Below, one piece after another: positions 8,544 to 23,638 of a stretch of 36,148 nt of DNA. The stretch's first letter is position 1; the number at the start of each line of letters is the position of its first letter. Source of the DNA: a virus; the IMG/VR virus record IMGVR_UViG_3300042516_003644, positions 1-36,148 of that record; one strand, given 5' to 3'. A model generated the notes under the pieces. The model was not told the origin of the DNA, searched no databases, and was given only the letters and a program-made list of their open reading frames with translations. The position numbers and the translations under genes were made by a program.

Positions 8544-9299
8544 TCAGTTGCAGCTAATTTTCCAAGAGAAAGCGGCGGCGTGTTCGGTGCGCTTGCGTAG
8601 GGCATCGGAAATTTCCACATGAAAATAAGACAAGCATCCGATGTCGCCATCCCACGCTTCGGCCACAGTGCCTTTCTTGCCACCGATCACAAACTGATCG
8701 CTGCGAGCTAAAAAAGCTCCTGTTGCTTCTTTACGCGAGCTAATCACCGATCCGTTGCTCCACGCGCGGGCCGTATTGGCGCCGAGGACGGTGGAGATGA
8801 CGCGAAAATCGGAGCCGCTGGTTATGGGCGCTAAGGCTTTCGGCGTTGAGGTCGTTGCATAACCGCTGCCAATAAACAGTGCGTCGTATTGCGACCAATC
8901 AAACACGCCTCCGGGCGCCAAATAACAAAAGCCCAAACCGCGATTGCTGTCGTTGCCGCTCGTATATGCTTGTGTTGCAATCGGACGATATTGCGCCGTC
9001 TGCTGCCACGCATCGGCTTTGGCCGCAGACACCAGCGAAGCGGCAGATGGCAGCGCATAGCTTGAAGTCAAAAGCTGGTCGTTGGAGCCGTCGAAACGCA
9101 CGATGGGGCTTCCGCCTTGCACGGCGGTTTTGAAAACGGGGCGGTTGCCAGAAGTTGCTTGTGAAGCTGTGCGCGCATTAGCCGAGCGGTCTGTCCAGTC
9201 GGCTACGGCGTCATTGTCGGCCAGCGCGAGAAAGCGGGCGTCATAGCAAGAGGCGGCCCCCGCGTGTGCTGGGTTGAAATGGCGGGCGCGGCGTCTCAT
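8544..9299 (-). CDS. Lectin-like (LamG/concanavalin fold) tail protein
   Basis: The 251-residue product reads like a LamG/concanavalin-A-type domain: WTDRSANARTASQATSGNRPVF, then IVRFDGSNDQLL, and later WDGDIGCLSYFHVEISDALR, the usual closing strand pattern of these jelly-roll domains. Such domains on phage tails often bind glycans on the host surface. The ATG overlaps the stop of the fibre gene (TAATG), so the two are coupled. It is a candidate receptor-binding protein. Confidence 0.65.
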   Translation of the reverse strand: MRRRARHFNPAHAGAASCYDARFLALADNDAVADWTDRSANARTASQATSGNRPVFKTAVQGGSPIVRFDGSNDQLLTSSYALPSAASLVSAAKADAWQQTAQYRPIATQAYTSGNDSNRGLGFCYLAPGGVFDWSQYDALFIGSGYATTSTPKALAPITSGSDFRVISTVLGANTARAWSNGSVISSRKEATGAFLARSDQFVIGGKKGTVAEAWDGDIGCLSYFHVEISDALRKRTEHAAAFSWKISCN

Positions 9300-11341
9300 T
9301 AGTTGAAGATGATCTCCACGCCGAGCAGGCGGGCGTCCACAGCGAGAGTGTCGCCCGCTGCGTTCGCGTCACGATAGATGCTGAACTGAATGGGTGTGTT
9401 TGCCGCTGGCGTCCCGCCAATCGTCACGGCACTTGTTGCGCTCGTAACGTGCATGTCGTTGGCCGCAATCAGCGTATCGGTCACGGTCTGTGCAGTGCCT
9501 GCGGCGGTGTCCAGCGCATCGTCGTTGGCAAAGGCACGGCCTTGAATTCCCCAGATGACATCTCCAGAGCCACTTGCGGCAGTCCAATAGAACCGCGCCG
9601 TGAGCGTGCCGTTATTGTAGTTGGACGGCATGACCACCAAGGCATCGGCAAATTCGTCGGAGCCTGCATCGAAAAGTAGTTCGTCAAAGTTTTGGTCGTT
9701 GGTCGTGGTTTCGCGGCTGTCCACTCCGCATCCCGATGTCGTCTTTGGGATAAAGGCACTGGATGGCACCCAGAGATTATTTGCGCCGCCTGTCGCGGTG
9801 ACGGTCATCGTAGTCCCGCTAATACTAAGGCCCGATCCCGCTTCCAGATACCGCCACTTACCCTCGCTATCGTCCCAGAAAACAATGCGGTCGGCGTTCG
9901 GGTCATCAGCAACAAGATCGCTGCCGCCCGACACGCTCAACACATCGGCGATGGATGCGCCGACTGCGGAGATGCCGCCCGATGACGTAGCCGAAAGCTC
10001 CCCCGCCGAAAGCGAAAGGCCCGATCCAATTTGAATCTCCTCTATGGCACCCGCGCTGGCGCTCGTCCTTCCCAAAATCCGTGCGGTGGCTTGCGTTAGG
10101 CCGCTGGTTGTGATGGAGCCAGAGGCGGCAAAGTCTTCTGTGTTGCTAAACACAATATTCCCAGCATTGGCAAAATAATCGTTTAATGTCTCGCCTTCAC
10201 CCAATGGGCCAAGCCCGCCCGAAGGAGCGACCACTTGCGTAAGCTGTAATGACACAGGATCGCTTCCCGTTGCGGCGTGAGTCGCGGCGTGCGCGGGCGG
10301 CGCGTCGGTTGTTAGCGCGAGAGTTCCGCTGGCGTTGGGCAACTGGTAATTGCGGTTGGCCGAAAGAATATCCGAGCCAACCGTAAGCGTTGCCAGATAG
10401 GAGTTGTTGTCCTCGATTTGAATCTGCGAGTTAGCCTTTATGGAGGACGCAACCAAGTCGCTGTTTACGTTTACAACGTCAAACGTGACATTGCTTGTCG
10501 TGTTAAGGTCTTGGTCTGCATCGACTGCGGCGGCTGTGCCTGCGTCGGTAATTGCGGAAAGGGTGTGGGTGTGGGAGGTTGGGGTGCGGCTGTCGGAAAG
10601 GCGGGAGTCGTTGCCGAGAACGACCTCCGAAGAAGACGCATTGCCGCTTTTGGGGGCGCGTGTGGATACGGAGTCTTTGGCAGCATTGCGCTGATAATTT
10701 GAAAGCAGAGATTGGTCAACGACCGGCGCGTCACCACTTCCCTGTGGGCCAAGCGCCCAAGAGGTGGCTTCCCACGGATAGGTCGTGTCGCCAGTTCCAA
10801 TGTAATACTTTGCCGTCTGCGGGACGTTACCAAGCACCCACTCCTCCTCGCCATCGTCCCACCAAAGCGCGTAGCCCTGTGAAGATTTATAGATAGCTTT
10901 GCCGTTGTCGATGCCGTCGCGGAAATAAATGCCGTTAGGCTCACCGCTGCTAAAAGTTGTGTCTGCGACATCGGCGGCATCGCAATAGATTGCCGAGGGT
11001 TGGTGGGAGTGTAAAACGGCGGCAACAGTCACCGCGCCCGTCTGACCATTGACCGAGGACACGCCCGATGCCGGGGCTGCGCCCCATTCAGGGGCTGTGC
11101 CGCCAGAGTTGACCTTTAGGATTTGGCCTGCTGTGCCGATGCCGAGGCGCTGCCCGGTAGACGCGCCTTGGTAAAGGATATCGCCCTGCGTTGTCAGGAC
11201 TTCCAGCCCTGTGCCGGGAACGCCTTGCGCCCCGGTCGCGCCTGCGTCGCCCTTGTCGCCCTTCGGCCCTTGAGGCCCTGTCGGGCCTGCGACTTGAACG
11301 ACAGTCGCCGTGCCCTGAACAATCTCTATCGTGTCGGCCAT
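9299..11341 (-). CDS. Tail fibre with collagen-like N-terminal repeat
   Basis: A 680-residue fibre. After a short N-terminal attachment segment, residues 19-45 are nine Gly-X-Y triplets (GPTGPQGPKGDKG and on), a collagen-like trimeric stalk. The long remainder is rich in Gly, Ser, Thr and Asn with repeated GxGLSxSxG strands and a SHTHxLSAITDAGTAA segment typical of phage fibre shafts. The final 130 residues form a beta-rich head. It likely trimerises and recognises the host. The gene is preceded by a strong GGAGGT site. Confidence 0.8.
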   Translation of the reverse strand: MADTIEIVQGTATVVQVAGPTGPQGPKGDKGDAGATGAQGVPGTGLEVLTTQGDILYQGASTGQRLGIGTAGQILKVNSGGTAPEWGAAPASGVSSVNGQTGAVTVAAVLHSHQPSAIYCDAADVADTTFSSGEPNGIYFRDGIDNGKAIYKSSQGYALWWDDGEEEWVLGNVPQTAKYYIGTGDTTYPWEATSWALGPQGSGDAPVVDQSLLSNYQRNAAKDSVSTRAPKSGNASSSEVVLGNDSRLSDSRTPTSHTHTLSAITDAGTAAAVDADQDLNTTSNVTFDVVNVNSDLVASSIKANSQIQIEDNNSYLATLTVGSDILSANRNYQLPNASGTLALTTDAPPAHAATHAATGSDPVSLQLTQVVAPSGGLGPLGEGETLNDYFANAGNIVFSNTEDFAASGSITTSGLTQATARILGRTSASAGAIEEIQIGSGLSLSAGELSATSSGGISAVGASIADVLSVSGGSDLVADDPNADRIVFWDDSEGKWRYLEAGSGLSISGTTMTVTATGGANNLWVPSSAFIPKTTSGCGVDSRETTTNDQNFDELLFDAGSDEFADALVVMPSNYNNGTLTARFYWTAASGSGDVIWGIQGRAFANDDALDTAAGTAQTVTDTLIAANDMHVTSATSAVTIGGTPAANTPIQFSIYRDANAAGDTLAVDARLLGVEIIFN

Positions 11342-12894: not shown

Positions 12895-13323
12895 TCAGCG
12901 GCTATCTACGCCCCACCAAAACGGGAAGCTCCACGGCCCCCGGCGATCCTCGTCGGGATTGATGGGATCGTATTCGCGGGACGGGAGGTTTAGAATCGCC
13001 GCCTCGCGGTGGCCGTGGCAGGGCGTGAAGCCGTGGAACAACCCTGCCGGGATGATGAGAAGTTGCGGCGTGTCGGCGGAAAGGATGATCGTTTGGCCGC
13101 GCATGGCCTCGGCGTCCCAGATGCCGACTTTTGCCGCGCCCGCTACGCAAAACCACCGATCCACTTGCAGCCGGTGGCGATGCCATGCTTTCACCACACC
13201 CGCCGCGCAAGTCGTGATGTAGGCTTGGCCGAAGCCGTGAGCGTCATCCGAGGCCCGGAAGATTTCGGTGAGCTTGCCCCTGTCATCGAGGTGGGCGGTG
13301 AGCGGGCGGATCTCGGCTAACAT
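12895..13323 (-). CDS. RmlC-like cupin, sugar 3,5-epimerase-type
   Basis: The 142-residue protein follows the pattern of dTDP-4-dehydrorhamnose 3,5-epimerase: DDRGKLTEIFRASD near the start, GVVKAWHRHRLQVDRWFCVAGAAKVGIWDA (His pair and strand), and PAGLFHGFTPC in the second cupin motif. It is shorter than full RmlC (about 180), as in WxcM/FdtA-type single-cupin variants. It overlaps the glycosyltransferase gene upstream, so the two probably act together on a nucleotide sugar and a phage or host acceptor. Confidence 0.75.
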   Translation of the reverse strand: MLAEIRPLTAHLDDRGKLTEIFRASDDAHGFGQAYITTCAAGVVKAWHRHRLQVDRWFCVAGAAKVGIWDAEAMRGQTIILSADTPQLLIIPAGLFHGFTPCHGHREAAILNLPSREYDPINPDEDRRGPWSFPFWWGVDSR

Positions 13324-14339
13324 GGCATCCACGGTTGTTGCCGCACGCGGAGGTGCCCCCGGTATTCCCCCTCGGTTTCGTGATACGCCCGGTGGTGGAC
13401 GAGCGCGCCGTCCTTGTCGCGCTTCACATGATCCGCCGCCGTGTGCGGGATGCAGGCAATCCGCAGCCCTGCCGGGTGCCATCGGTGCCAGCATAGGAAC
13501 AGGTCTTGCGTTCCCCTGCCGTCGTAGCCCTCAAAGGTTGCCATCGCGAGCGCCTTGGCCGATAGAAGTGTGCAACCGAGGCCGCACCAATCGGACGGGA
13601 CAATGGCCCCCTTGCCAATTCCGGGATAAGCGTAGTCCATCCATCCCCTGCGCCGCCATCCGTGCTTGGCCGTGATTTCAAAGACGTTTCCGTCTGGTGG
13701 GCATTTCTTCACCCGCTCATGGAGCCGCCCCAACCGCTTACCCTCGCGCTCGCCAATCTCTTTGTCTTTGCAGTCCTTCAGTCTTTCGCGGCAGACCTCC
13801 AAAGCGCGGGCGAGGCGCGGCGGTAGTTTGCGCTCCTTCTCCGTGAAATCTTCGGCAATGGGATGCTGTGGCGTCCCGTTGCCGCCAAGGAAAAGGCCGT
13901 TCGGATAAGTGACCGCCGCCACCTCATAGTAAAGCGAGCCATCTGCCTGCGGCATAGTTAGCACCCACTCGGCCACCCGGAGGGCATCGGCAGGCACAAG
14001 GTTGTCGGCCTCCACGCTCCACAAAGCCGTGGCGCGAATCTTTCTGGCAGCGGCAAACGCGGCCCCCTGCAATGCGGCAATCCGCATTTGCGCCTCTACT
14101 TTGTAGTCCTTGCCCTTGGTTCCCCCGTCATCGAGCGGCAACTGGACGGCCTGGATTCGCCAGCCTTCGGGAAGTTCGTGGCGCGCTGCCTCGATCGCTT
14201 GCTTGGCCTCATCGCTCTGGTCAGTTGCCAGAATGAAATGCGCCTCGGCGTGATGCCCGGCTGCGGCGGCTATCCTGCGGAGGAACTGCGGCCAGCAGTA
14301 GAAATAGCTCCGCGTTGCGTATGTTGCGATTGCCAGCAC
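13317..14339 (-). CDS. Glycosyltransferase-like protein
   Basis: This 340-residue protein has a Rossmann-like start (LAIATYATRSYFYCW), then GKDYKVEAQMRIAALQGA, and an acidic motif ATALWSVEADNLVPADAL that fits the metal-binding DxD-type segment of GT-A glycosyltransferases. GLGCTLLSAKAL and the GYDGRGTQDLFLCWH segment follow, as in GT2-like enzymes. The start is a GTG at 14339, 15 bases after TTGACAC. It overlaps the RmlC-like gene and directly follows the Ser/Thr-rich tail protein gene, a plausible acceptor. Enzyme class is moderately sure; donor and acceptor are unknown. Confidence 0.65.
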   Translation of the reverse strand: MLAIATYATRSYFYCWPQFLRRIAAAAGHHAEAHFILATDQSDEAKQAIEAARHELPEGWRIQAVQLPLDDGGTKGKDYKVEAQMRIAALQGAAFAAARKIRATALWSVEADNLVPADALRVAEWVLTMPQADGSLYYEVAAVTYPNGLFLGGNGTPQHPIAEDFTEKERKLPPRLARALEVCRERLKDCKDKEIGEREGKRLGRLHERVKKCPPDGNVFEITAKHGWRRRGWMDYAYPGIGKGAIVPSDWCGLGCTLLSAKALAMATFEGYDGRGTQDLFLCWHRWHPAGLRIACIPHTAADHVKRDKDGALVHHRAYHETEGEYRGHLRVRQQPWMPC

Positions 14340-14357
14340 TCGCGGGCGGGGCGGGTG

Positions 14358-16124
14358 TCAAGCAGGAGGCAAGTTGGTGCTGTTACGCGGAACTGCCCAG
14401 ACGATCGGGTCGGCGTTTGTCCCTGCCACGGGAAAATCTATGTATGTGATCGGAAGCCAACGCCGAATTTGCGTGGACTGCCCCTCGGTGTAGGCCGTGG
14501 CGTTTCCCGCAAAAGAGCTTGTCTCGCCGTTGATTTGATCGCGGTATGCGCCCTGCCCTGGCGTATCGACAAAGGTTGCGCCAGCCCCGACAAGTTCGGC
14601 CCCAGCGTGCGGGATGCGGCCCGCCGTATTTGCGGTAGTCGTTAGCGATGATCCTGCCGTCTGAACGGCCTGGCTTGTGGTGGTGGTTGTCGTGCCGCCC
14701 TGTGTTGCGTTGGTCGAGATCGTCCAAGTAATTGAGTCGGAACTAAGCGTGAGGCGTGAATTGGTCAGCGGAAACAAGGTGCGCCCGCCCACGTTGCCCC
14801 CGGCGTAAGCGGTCGCGTATCCGCCCGACCCATCAAACAGGGTTGCGGATTGCGCTCCGTTTAGCGACATCCAGCCGCCCGTTGCAGTTCCGACAACAAC
14901 GCCAGTTGTCGAAAACGCATGGCGAGACAAATCTCCGCAAGTCGCCGTTTGTAGTTTGCCGCTATGATACACGACTTCGTTTGCGCCCGCCTGATAAGTT
15001 GCCCCCGCCGTTCTTGCCTCGACCAAATCGCCCGGAGGAATTGGCAAATACAATGATGTAGATGTTGCGATGGCTGTTGCTCCAACAGTTTGGCTTCGTG
15101 ATGCGCTGGTTTTTTGCGTTGATTGGAAAGTCTGAAGCCCGCTTTGCCGAAAAACCGTGGTCGGGTAAGTGGCCCAAGACACAACCGAGCGCGTTGTGTG
15201 CGATTCCTGCGGGGTAAATGCTCCAGCATACCCCACAGTCCATTGATGGCTCGCAAACACAGTTGTGGAGATTGGTTGGTTGGTGGTTGTCCAACCCGTT
15301 TGCGTGATGGCAATGGTGCTGTTGGGCAGAACTTCAAACGCCTGCCCGCTTGTGGCTGCTTGCGTTTTTTGCGTTGAAGCCTCGACTTGCACAATGGTCG
15401 ATGATTGTGATTGCGATGAGGTTGCCGTGGTTGTTTGGCCCCCGGCGACGGTGATTTTGCTGGCGGTCAAATAGGACGCATAAGCCGTCGTGCGCGTTCC
15501 GCTTTGCGCCACATTGCTGGCTGCGCTGAAACCTCCCCACGCGGCCAGCGGATTTGAGATAGCATAGAGAACCTCCCCCGCCTCGGCTTGGTAAACTGTG
15601 GCAAGGGGAAGCCGCCCCGCAGACGTTTGGCCGTTGGTCGTGGTTGCGTCGCGTGTGGCTTCCCTCGATGTGGCCTGCACTTGCGCGAACGTGGCAACCG
15701 TGCCATCCCCATGGTAAAAACTCACGGCACCATCCTCTGCCGAAGATGTTGTCCAAAACGGGACAAACGCCACTTCGTCGCCATCTGCCACAACCGTGAT
15801 CGTTGCGAAAGTATCATACCACGATTCGTAAGTTTCGGTGGTGCTTGTCTCGGCATAAAATGTTGCCGGGGTAATCGTCTCGTATGTGGCCGAGGTGCTG
15901 GTTTGGATGCTTTCGCGGGGATTGTTGCGCGTTGCGGTTATGGTTTGCCGTTGGGTGGTTCCCGCAGAATTGACTGACGAACTGTTCGTGGTCGCGGCGC
16001 TGGCCGAATAGGTATCATCGGCGGAAGTCGGGAAGAAGTTTGTGCCGTCAATGCTTAACGAATCAACTGAACTGGTTGATCCAGTGATCGGGTCGAACGT
16101 GTTGGCGATGTGCCACGAAATCAT
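14358..16124 (-). CDS. Large Ser/Thr-rich tail protein
   Basis: The 588-residue product is extremely rich in Thr, Ser, Ala and Gln over most of its length, with repeated strands such as TTTATSSQSQSSTIV, ASRSQTVGATAIATST and GGTTTTTTSQAVQTAG. It ends in a compact domain with WLPITYIDFPVAG. The start at 16124 overlaps the upstream stop (ATGA). Location after the tape measure and two tail genes suggests a tail-tip or fibre protein. The Ser/Thr density next to a glycosyltransferase makes it a candidate for glycosylation. Confidence 0.65.
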   Translation of the reverse strand: MISWHIANTFDPITGSTSSVDSLSIDGTNFFPTSADDTYSASAATTNSSSVNSAGTTQRQTITATRNNPRESIQTSTSATYETITPATFYAETSTTETYESWYDTFATITVVADGDEVAFVPFWTTSSAEDGAVSFYHGDGTVATFAQVQATSREATRDATTTNGQTSAGRLPLATVYQAEAGEVLYAISNPLAAWGGFSAASNVAQSGTRTTAYASYLTASKITVAGGQTTTATSSQSQSSTIVQVEASTQKTQAATSGQAFEVLPNSTIAITQTGWTTTNQPISTTVFASHQWTVGYAGAFTPQESHTTRSVVSWATYPTTVFRQSGLQTFQSTQKTSASRSQTVGATAIATSTSLYLPIPPGDLVEARTAGATYQAGANEVVYHSGKLQTATCGDLSRHAFSTTGVVVGTATGGWMSLNGAQSATLFDGSGGYATAYAGGNVGGRTLFPLTNSRLTLSSDSITWTISTNATQGGTTTTTTSQAVQTAGSSLTTTANTAGRIPHAGAELVGAGATFVDTPGQGAYRDQINGETSSFAGNATAYTEGQSTQIRRWLPITYIDFPVAGTNADPIVWAVPRNSTNLPPA

Positions 16125-16750
16125 TGCAGCCGATAGTAGATATCGTAAGGCGACTCTCCCGGTGCGGCGGCGGGATCGGCGGAAACGACAAGCCACTGTT
16201 CGGGCGACATTGTGATATGCCCCGCCCCGATGACACGATAAACCGACCCCTCGGCAAACAGCCCGAAAAGGTGTTCAACCTCGGCGGCAATCCCGAACTC
16301 CTGCGACTCTTGCACCGTAGGCTCTGTCGTGTCTATGGCGATGGTCACGCCTGTGATTGCCTCGCCGTCTGTGGTGATGACGGCCTTGGCGTAATGCAGG
16401 CCCGTGCCCGCGCACTCAAATTCCTCGTCCCAATTTGAAGGCAGGATGCCGTTGAGTGTTCCGGGCTGGACGCGCACAAGGTAAGGCGGGTTCTCGTCTT
16501 CGGGATCGGCGTCGGGATCGACGCGGGCGATTAAGTCCCACGGTTGGCGGGTTGTTGGGGTGCCGCCGCGTGGCAAAGACGCAGCAAGGCCGATATAGGT
16601 GCCGGTGCCGTCTTGTCTGACTGTGATGCCGCGCTCGCCCTTGGGTTTGTTGCGCTTAATCTCTTGCAGGATCGTGTTGAGACGATCGGCGCTCAGTTCG
16701 CGCAGAAGCGGCCTGTTGGGCAGGAATCGGATTTGCGCGAAGTCGGACAT
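16121..16750 (-). CDS. Tail-tip/baseplate protein of unknown family
   Basis: The 209-residue protein begins FLPNRPLLRELSADRLNTILQEIKRNKP, then has strands with RQPWDLIARVDPDADPEDENPPYLVRVQPGTLNGILPSNW. Similar starts occur in uncharacterised virion proteins near tail fibres, from recollection. It starts three bases after the upstream stop and overlaps the Ser/Thr-rich tail gene. Role is inferred from order only. Confidence 0.5.
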   Translation of the reverse strand: MSDFAQIRFLPNRPLLRELSADRLNTILQEIKRNKPKGERGITVRQDGTGTYIGLAASLPRGGTPTTRQPWDLIARVDPDADPEDENPPYLVRVQPGTLNGILPSNWDEEFECAGTGLHYAKAVITTDGEAITGVTIAIDTTEPTVQESQEFGIAAEVEHLFGLFAEGSVYRVIGAGHITMSPEQWLVVSADPAAAPGESPYDIYYRLQ

Positions 16751-19238: not shown

Positions 19239-19787
19239 TTACGAGCCGCTAAAGGCTACGGTGGTTGCGGTTGTGCGGACGAAATCGGTGTTGCTGAACC
19301 GCTTTTCGGTGCGGATCGTGCCGCCCGCCGCGATGCTTCCAACCGTCAGGCTTCCGCCCGCGCCATAGAACACGCCGCGAATGTTGGTCTTCACCACATC
19401 GCCAGCAGTCTCGGCTTTTTCGGCGCTCAGAGTTTCAAAGGTGGTGCCGTCCAGTTCAAAGGTCGAATCCGTAAACTCGCCCAAAACGGTGGCAGAGGCT
19501 TCGGCGCGAGGGTTGTATGTGCGGGCGGCGGGTGGTGCAGTGCTTGCAGCCGAAGGCTCAATAATCGTCTCGTCTACGCTCCATGTGATTGTGGCGCTCA
19601 GAGCGTCAAGGTTGTCGATTTCTGGCGCACCAAAAGTGGTTGTGACCGTCTCGGTTGTGGTTTCGGTGCGGGTGTATTTGAGAATGTTATCCGCAACCGC
19701 TCCCGTGTTGTCCGCAACGGCGAGATATTCGTAGGACTTGCTGGTCGAGCGAGAAAAGCCAGCGCCAGAGCCGTAAGTGATAGCCAT
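19239..19787 (-). CDS. Major tail tube protein
   Basis: The 182-residue protein is beta-rich with acidic, Thr-rich strands (TRTETTTETVTTTFG, ATITWSVDETIIE) and ends with a strand pair near TTATTVAFSGS. Size and place before the chaperone and tape measure match the lambda V-type tail tube. Its start is in the recurring module TTGACAC-13 bases-ATG with GAGGGC as ribosome-binding site, consistent with high expression. Confidence 0.6.
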   Translation of the reverse strand: MAITYGSGAGFSRSTSKSYEYLAVADNTGAVADNILKYTRTETTTETVTTTFGAPEIDNLDALSATITWSVDETIIEPSAASTAPPAARTYNPRAEASATVLGEFTDSTFELDGTTFETLSAEKAETAGDVVKTNIRGVFYGAGGSLTVGSIAAGGTIRTEKRFSNTDFVRTTATTVAFSGS

Positions 19788-21922: not shown

Positions 21923-23638
21923 TCAAAGCCAACCCACAGCGTCAGGGTTGCGGCGGCGGAAGACGGCTTTGCCGCGCTCGTTGGCCTCTGGGTTTTGCTG
22001 GCGGCGGTAACATTCGTCCGTGGCCGCGCCTGTGAATAGCGGGTGGTCGTGGTAGAACTTAATGTGCCGCGCATCCTCGACAACGCCGTCTCGGTAGGAG
22101 CGGAAAGAAAACTCGGTGTCCGACCAATAGCCGTCGTATTCGGGACAAAGCAACCAATCGCGGCCCAGCCACCAGCGCCAGTTGAAGCACATGATGGTCA
22201 TTAACTTTTCGTCGGGCTTGTTGAAGCTGTCCGAAACGTGCAGCACGGTCGGCTTGTCCATGTGCGGGGTCATGGCTTGGATCACTTGCTCATCCCAACC
22301 GTGGGGGGGATAAACGTCCGACTGACTCATAATGAAGATGCGCGCTCCTGACGCCGTGGCTGCGCGGGCGGCGGCGTTGTAGTTGGCCACGGCAGAGGAA
22401 TGGCCTTCGGGAACGGCGGGCGCCATCGCGTGCGGGTAGTGCTGCAACTGCTCGACCACCTCCGTGTCGCTTTCGCAGATGCCAAAATAATACGCCACGC
22501 GCTCCGGGTGCGCGGCCCGCTCCAGCCAGAGGTTGCGGACTTCGATGTCCTTTTGCCCCCTGCCCGCTGGGTGGCCCACGGCAATGCGAGGTTTGAGGCG
22601 CTTCTGCCATTCTTTGCGGATGCGCTCGGCTTCTTTGCTGTGCCCGGCTTTAGCCAGGGCCAGCGTCTTTAGATCGTGCGCTCGCCATCCGTAGAGGGAC
22701 GCATCGTGCGTCCAAGAGGGTTCGTCGGGCATGGGTTGCGCTTCCATTGCGTAGGCATAGGCCAACCCTTTCTTTGGGTTGCCTCTGGCCGTGTGCATTT
22801 TGCAAAGCTCGGCGTAGCCTTCGCGGCGGTGCGGCATGAGGCGCACAGCTTCCAAGAGCGGGCGCTCGGCTTCGTCCACGTCTTTGATCCATCGGCCAAT
22901 GGTTTGGTAGGCCACGAACTTTTCCTCGTCGCCGAGGTCAGGGTGGGCCGTGGCAAAGATCGCGGCCTCCATGGCCTTCGGGATGTCTTGCTGCGTCTCG
23001 CACTCACGGAAGAGAAACCACCATTCGCGGCCCGTGCGTTGCTCTGGCGGCACGCTTTCAAGGATGGCGCGGTTGCGGACTACGCTGCCGCGCTTGTTGT
23101 TTTCGGGTAGGTGGATGACTTGAAGTTCCATGCACCAAGTATTTTTGGTGCCGTCCTTTGTCTCGATGTCCTCGTGAACGGCATTGATCCACTGGCTGTA
23201 GCAATCCACATGGACGAGGCGGATGCGCCTGGCATAGCTGCCACTGGCGTTGGTCACATACGGTGCGTAGATGGCGCCTTTGATGATCTCGGTGCCGCTG
23301 CGAATCTTGGCCAGCGCCTCGGCCCCTGAGTCGGCCAGCAGATCGTCGCAATCGGCCCACATGATCCAGTCGGCGCCTTCGGGTGCGAGGGCAAAGGTCT
23401 GATTGCGGGCGGCGGCGAAGTTGTCGACGTGCGGCCAATCTTTGCCCGTCTCGCCGTTGTGGTATTCGCCCACGATGCAGCCACGCGCCTTGGCGATGTC
23501 CAGCGTCTCGTCGGGCGGTTGCTTGCCGCAGGCGCGCACCACGCTGACAGAATCAACGTGCGGTTGGAAGCTGTCGAGGAAGCGGGTGATGTTGGCCGCT
23601 TCGTTGCCTACAATGATGCCGAGATGAATCTTTGCCAC
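21923..23638 (-). CDS. Two-domain GT2-type glycosyltransferase within the head operon
   Basis: The 571-residue protein starts with a GT-A fold (IHLGIIVGNEAANITRFLDSF, ARNQTFALAP) and a DxD-type motif WADCDDLL near residue 98. A helical middle with TPR-like spacing (ERPLLEAVRLMPHRREGYAELCKMH) follows. The C-terminal third is a second glycosyltransferase-like domain (VAYYFGICESD; SQSDVYPPHGWDEQV; EYDGYWSDTEFSFR). It lies directly after the capsid gene behind a strong terminator, with a GTG start and no strong ribosome-binding site, so expression may be low. Capsid or host glycosylation is plausible. Confidence 0.75.
   Translation of the reverse strand: MAKIHLGIIVGNEAANITRFLDSFQPHVDSVSVVRACGKQPPDETLDIAKARGCIVGEYHNGETGKDWPHVDNFAAARNQTFALAPEGADWIMWADCDDLLADSGAEALAKIRSGTEIIKGAIYAPYVTNASGSYARRIRLVHVDCYSQWINAVHEDIETKDGTKNTWCMELQVIHLPENNKRGSVVRNRAILESVPPEQRTGREWWFLFRECETQQDIPKAMEAAIFATAHPDLGDEEKFVAYQTIGRWIKDVDEAERPLLEAVRLMPHRREGYAELCKMHTARGNPKKGLAYAYAMEAQPMPDEPSWTHDASLYGWRAHDLKTLALAKAGHSKEAERIRKEWQKRLKPRIAVGHPAGRGQKDIEVRNLWLERAAHPERVAYYFGICESDTEVVEQLQHYPHAMAPAVPEGHSSAVANYNAAARAATASGARIFIMSQSDVYPPHGWDEQVIQAMTPHMDKPTVLHVSDSFNKPDEKLMTIMCFNWRWWLGRDWLLCPEYDGYWSDTEFSFRSYRDGVVEDARHIKFYHDHPLFTGAATDECYRRQQNPEANERGKAVFRRRNPDAVGWL

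Follow-up and report, generated by a model that had tools for sequence, protein, structure and literature searches.

Gene Organization of the Locus

The window analyzed here, a virus record of 36 kb taken at its full length, carries a late operon on the minus strand that encodes, in this order, a terminase, a portal, a capsid-like protein (its match to PF25209 lies below the cut-off of that family), a second transferase of 571 aa and head and tail genes, followed by a tape-measure-like protein, the structural-type proteins p214 and p209, a Ser/Thr-rich protein (ST), a glycosyltransferase (GT), a cupin (EPI) and further tail/fibre genes; an amidase and an integrase are found beyond the late operon. 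ST (14358..16124, minus strand; 588 aa from the ATG at 16124) is a hypervariable tail-region protein, predicted to be all-beta, and the proposed acceptor of GT. It is preceded by p209 (16121..16750, minus strand), the proposed adaptor, and GT (13317..14339, minus strand; 340 aa) begins 18 nt after it. EPI (12895..13323, minus strand) is a 142-aa cupin resembling sugar-nucleotide isomerases/epimerases, an optional accessory, which overlaps GT by 7 nt when read from the ATG at 13323.

The three genes and their overlap had been reported in a preliminary description of this DNA; the ORFs were confirmed, the overlap being that of EPI with GT, and the starts of ST and EPI were corrected. The 612-aa version of ST was discarded because its GTG start (16196) falls inside the previous gene, and the proteins of many relatives begin with M-I-S-W or a similar sequence at the point that corresponds to the ATG at 16124. 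The 199-aa version of EPI (start at 13494) is spurious, the conserved start being the ATG at 13323.

Other products of interest in the window include a Ser/Thr-rich tail protein of 182 aa (19239-19787; S+T 0.27) and a fibre-like protein of 680 aa (9299-11341, minus strand), which resembles tail-collar proteins, contains a short collagen-like segment and is 32-86% identical to its relatives. The second glycosyltransferase (21923..23638, minus strand; 571 aa) lies directly after the capsid-like gene and matches phrog_13126 (E 1.8e-19) and, below the cut-off, PF00535 (0.00089). Among loci with flanks long enough to include this position, most encode a relative of this protein, 29-97% identical, and weak similarity to SunS peptide S-glycosyltransferases was also observed. 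The earlier proposal of a head-operon transferase, and hence of two glycosylation sites in one genome, is thus borne out as far as gene content is concerned.

The Predicted Glycosyltransferase Belongs to an Unnamed Family

The window GT had no match in Pfam, PHROGs or NCBIfam, nor to solved structures when compared by sequence, and neither tblastn searches with GT and EPI nor a DNA search with the region returned a match among 50,697 deposited phages. A search of the open literature found no earlier description, and one may exist. PF13641 weakly matches 6 of 26 GT relatives (best E 4.1e-5) and GT itself does not match the glycosyltransferase family 2 models PF13641/PF00535. The initial annotation as a glycosyltransferase, which cannot be seen in the protein sequence from the window, is supported at the level of the predicted fold. 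An AlphaFold model built with 26 sequences (pLDDT 78, pTM 0.71; poorly confident at residues 148-164 and 218-252) gave the collagen galactosyltransferase ColGalT1 as the best Foldseek match (E 4e-8), and VIA-align placed it in the GT-A fold, aligning 175-235 residues with a large number of GT-A enzymes at Z scores of about 18. E110-x-D112, D279, and H304 are invariant in the 26 relatives, down to about 42% identity. The protein is without a strongly hydrophobic segment, as its highest 19-residue hydropathy (1.28) is below what a membrane helix needs. Altogether, the protein is predicted to be a soluble GT-A-fold glycosyltransferase of an unnamed family.

The Ser/Thr-Rich Protein

About 30% of ST consists of Ser and Thr; in the 612-aa ORF, Thr accounts for 18.0%, Ser for 11.3% and only 4 residues are Lys. 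Across related loci, the gene at this position has a median S+T of 0.31 vs 0.121 for other genes of at least 300 aa, of which 3.3% reach 0.25, so that the Ser/Thr richness noted at the outset is beyond chance. ST and its relatives form a single family of homologues, many of which can be aligned over their full length, with a mean column identity of 20%; in distant pairs identity is at about the level given by composition alone in shuffled controls. Thr is the best-kept common residue, to be read with caution as aligners favour Thr in such sequences. The AlphaFold model (36 sequences) is all-beta with pLDDT 51.6 and pTM 0.42, and no fold is assigned, since fold comparison gave only Z <5; the pores and barrels in the match list are not evidence. 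The designation of ST as a tail-region protein is based on gene order, since both in the window and in relatives a tape-measure-like gene precedes it at a distance of a few genes.

Linkage of the Transferase to the Ser/Thr-Rich Gene

Two scans of viral sequences with GT gave 59 and 175 relatives, and the best 80 of the 175 were kept from the second. The resulting 88 distinct transferases include four (L049, L054, L055, and L058) in which the contig ends before the neighbour, leaving 84 testable loci. In all 84, the direct neighbour of GT is a Ser/Thr-rich ORF, with S+T of 0.21-0.39 (at least 0.25 in 75 of them and only 0.21-0.24 in nine; two neighbours are cut by the contig end). In ten loci, nine of which contain EPI, GT is encoded on the opposite strand and runs convergently toward the Ser/Thr-rich gene. 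The 84 loci share descent, hence no P value is attached to the co-occurrence.

When p209, p214, and p177, which flank the pair, were used as queries, four lineages (L201, L202, L203/L204, and L233) came up that lack both ST and GT and retain the flanking genes, the slot being filled by other proteins of 228-296 aa; S+T is 0.15-0.16 in the three of the four lineages for which it was computed. In L201-L203, residues 1-70 of p209 are 87-99% identical to those of the window at aligned positions and the remainder is unlike; the p209 of L233 is more distant (30 of 67 positions vs the window). The exchanged unit thus seems to comprise the C-terminal part of p209, ST, GT and, where present, EPI. The linkage of transferase and Ser/Thr-rich gene that had been proposed for the window therefore extends to a co-inherited pair, found together in every testable locus and absent together from four lineages. 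The three-gene association that had been put forward as a check holds for GT and ST (84/84) and fails for EPI, detected near GT in 39 of the 88 loci.

Across 32 phages, GT showed a median amino-acid identity of 0.87, pS of 0.60 and pN of 0.10, vs 0.28, 0.76, and 0.55 for ST; values for EPI were similar to those of GT, and p209, p214, and p177 were in between. Among close relatives GT is 84-92% identical and ST about 25-38%. Based on the combination of pS 0.60, pN 0.10 and identity 0.87, GT is, at the level of coding sequence, an old, constrained gene under strong purifying selection, and ST is hypervariable. The possibility that GT is a recent cargo gene was ruled out by its high synonymous differences (pS 0.60). 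The members of the pairs L008/L009 and L002/L019 have almost identical ST and differing GT alleles (80-92% DNA identity), indicating that GT alleles and ST genes recombine and that a single enzyme family can serve ST proteins of widely differing sequence. In L008/L009, GT forms a diverged patch (80-92% at the DNA level) at about 10000-11000, whereas the flanks on either side are 98-100% identical, a pattern resembling an allelic replacement of GT.

Accessory Genes

EPI passes the cut-off of PF14667, the polysaccharide biosynthesis C-terminal cupin (36.4 vs 28.7 bits), and not that of PF00908, the RmlC dTDP-4-dehydrorhamnose 3,5-epimerase (19.3 vs 27 bits), and it weakly matches QdtA, a dTDP sugar isomerase, and CapF; "RmlC-like epimerase" was therefore a roughly correct label. 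Its presence in only 39/88 loci rules it out as a core partner of GT, so that its inclusion in a fixed cassette, as first described, does not hold. Unless the host supplies intermediates, a cupin isomerase on its own is unable to produce a deoxysugar; for this reason, the claim that the tail is decorated with a deoxysugar is unsupported as stated. The suggested escape from antibodies likewise gained no support from the data, and an effect on receptor binding is speculative. Scanning of window proteins identified no further enzymes of a sugar-nucleotide pathway. Some relatives encode a DUF3431 protein (PF11913; E 1.2e-14 in L004) between GT and EPI (L004:11028-11708, L011:11008-11715, and L016:11008-11712). 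On contig IMGVR_UViG_3300044922_000470 (L158, L167), EPI matches occur near both ends, with 88% and 91% identity to the query, and could represent an end overlap or a second copy.

Hosts and Distribution

Many uncultivated phages carry a relative of GT, and at least one of these is a Verrucomicrobiota prophage. The GT profile matched contigs in MAGs labelled Chthoniobacter, Rariglobus, and Verrucomicrobiota, as well as two others binned as Burkholderiales and Betaproteobacteria. A survey of 388 genomes from the phylum to which the Chthoniobacter MAG belongs found GT in two, one being that MAG itself. In the other (G098), GT lies toward one end of a 70.8-kb contig, and genes for acetate kinase, phosphate acetyltransferase, NadC, and TrpA are found at the opposite end, so that this is most likely a prophage in a chromosome; the gene order is tape measure, two genes, a Ser/Thr-rich protein (0.31) and GT, the latter distant from that of the window. 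In a Verrucomicrobiota-phylum prophage (L248:10174-11562), a 462-aa protein with S+T of 0.55 follows GT, which is thus flanked by Ser/Thr-rich genes on both sides. GT was not seen in a cellular polysaccharide locus, either in the MAG contigs or in the 388 genomes, the context that would have spoken against a link with the tail protein.

Proposed Function and Alternative Explanations

Based on the available evidence, we propose, with a probability of about 0.62, that the neighbouring Ser/Thr-rich tail-region protein is decorated by GT, which would be a soluble protein O-glycosyltransferase dedicated to it; enzymatic activity, acceptor, sugar, virion location, and benefit are inferred from gene content, fold prediction, linkage, joint replacement, and selection. 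Late in infection, GT would take a nucleotide sugar from the host and link the sugar to Ser/Thr residues of ST in the cytoplasm, before or during tail assembly. As GT is predicted to be soluble and is encoded among late genes, it is probably cytoplasmic and would act on ST before assembly. The C-terminal part of p209 would then probably provide the docking site of ST on the tail; since this part, ST, and GT seem to be exchanged together, the simplest mechanical reading is that the C-terminus of p209 attaches ST to the tail. The optional proteins, EPI and the DUF3431 protein of some relatives, may adjust the available sugar, EPI possibly by tilting the host's supply in favour of a different keto- or deoxysugar.

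This proposal is supported by the adjacency of both genes in 84/84 loci, with S+T of at least 0.25 in 75 vs a background of 3.3%, and by contact from the opposite strand in ten. Joint absence in four lineages, the constraint on GT vs the drift of ST, the predicted GT-A fold, the invariant acidic positions, and the lack of a membrane segment point in the same direction, and a prophage of the Verrucomicrobiota phylum keeps this order around a distant GT. On the other hand, tail genes frequently stay in order even when no functional link exists between them, the loci share ancestry, the window has further fairly Ser/Thr-rich tail proteins (19239-19787, 0.27), nine of the ST neighbours reach only 0.21-0.24, and the GT model is in part of low confidence.

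It is unlikely, although worth weighing, that GT glycosylates another virion protein, for instance the 182-aa protein (19239-19787), in whose favour its S+T of 0.27 speaks, or p177 downstream, and that adjacency to ST merely follows a conserved tail order. PMC12619734 reports mycobacteriophage glycans on capsid and tail-tube subunits, which agrees with such an acceptor; however, GT on the opposite strand keeps contact with ST and not with p177, and ST and GT vanish together while p177 stays. A modification of the host surface (O-antigen or a related polysaccharide) that prevents superinfection or alters the receptor would suit a phage that is probably temperate, given its integrase, and an EPI that resembles polysaccharide-pathway enzymes. 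This is quite improbable for a soluble GT without a membrane segment, placed inside a late structural operon and tied to a tail-region gene, and a host polysaccharide locus with GT was not seen in the genomes surveyed.

The lack of sequence similarity between GT and any characterised transferase and the low confidence of part of its model leave a small chance that the protein is inactive as a transferase and that its GT-A fold instead assists the assembly of the Ser/Thr-rich protein or chaperones it; however, E110-x-D112, D279, and H304, at positions expected to hold the metal, nucleotide-sugar, and base residues, do not vary. Addition of sugars to phage DNA bases, known for other phage transferases (Pyle 2024, as cited in PMC12619734), is highly improbable, as it leaves the tie to a Ser/Thr-rich tail gene unexplained; a base-hypermodification gene was not recognised among the window proteins scanned (part of the ORFs).

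Decoration of ST by GT would lead to a more tentative idea, possible but doubtful, namely that a widespread lineage of uncultivated phages, at least some of them infecting Verrucomicrobiota, carries a "phage mucin" in which the sugar coat, and not the polypeptide, would be the constant functional surface. The sequence of ST would drift almost freely, while Ser/Thr density and a conserved glycosyltransferase of its own would be kept.

Relation to Known Systems and Significance

Glycans have been reported on capsid and tail-tube subunits of mycobacteriophages (Freeman et al. 2023, as described in PMC12619734 and PMC11256854), and phage-encoded transferases have been proposed or shown there to glycosylate capsid and tail proteins. 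GT, by its predicted fold, is likewise a phage-encoded transferase beside structural genes. In contrast to the mycobacteriophage systems, its family is unnamed and without relatives in the deposited phages searched, and the proposed acceptor is a hypervariable Ser/Thr-rich tail-region protein whose glycan is a prediction. The serine-rich repeat proteins (SRRPs) of Gram-positive bacteria (PMC6973325) offer a functional parallel only: they are also Ser/Thr-rich and O-glycosylated by a linked transferase, but are cell-surface adhesins exported via accessory Sec, whereas ST is a phage gene product. ColGalT1, the best Foldseek match among GT-A enzymes, is protein-modifying and Mn-dependent, but its identity to GT is about 13%, and GT-A folds, common to enzymes with many acceptors, are uninformative on the acceptor. 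EPI weakly resembles the sugar-nucleotide cupins QdtA/FdtA, the C-terminal domain of CapF, and RmlC. The transferases of phage O-antigen seroconversion (Gtr) are membrane-anchored, unlike GT (hydropathy 1.28).

Glycosylation of phage virions is already known; the novelty lies in the enzyme family and in its persistent association with a hypervariable Ser/Thr-rich protein. Glycosylation of the phage particle has been shown in few systems, and the acceptor of a phage transferase is usually hard to find; comparative genomics here names one proposed acceptor for one enzyme family. A clean prediction follows, that the transferase and the Ser/Thr-rich protein should suffice in a laboratory host. The GT profile also provides a sequence handle on a large, unstudied group of phages, and the coupling hints at a way in which a rapidly evolving surface in the tail region could retain a constant property.
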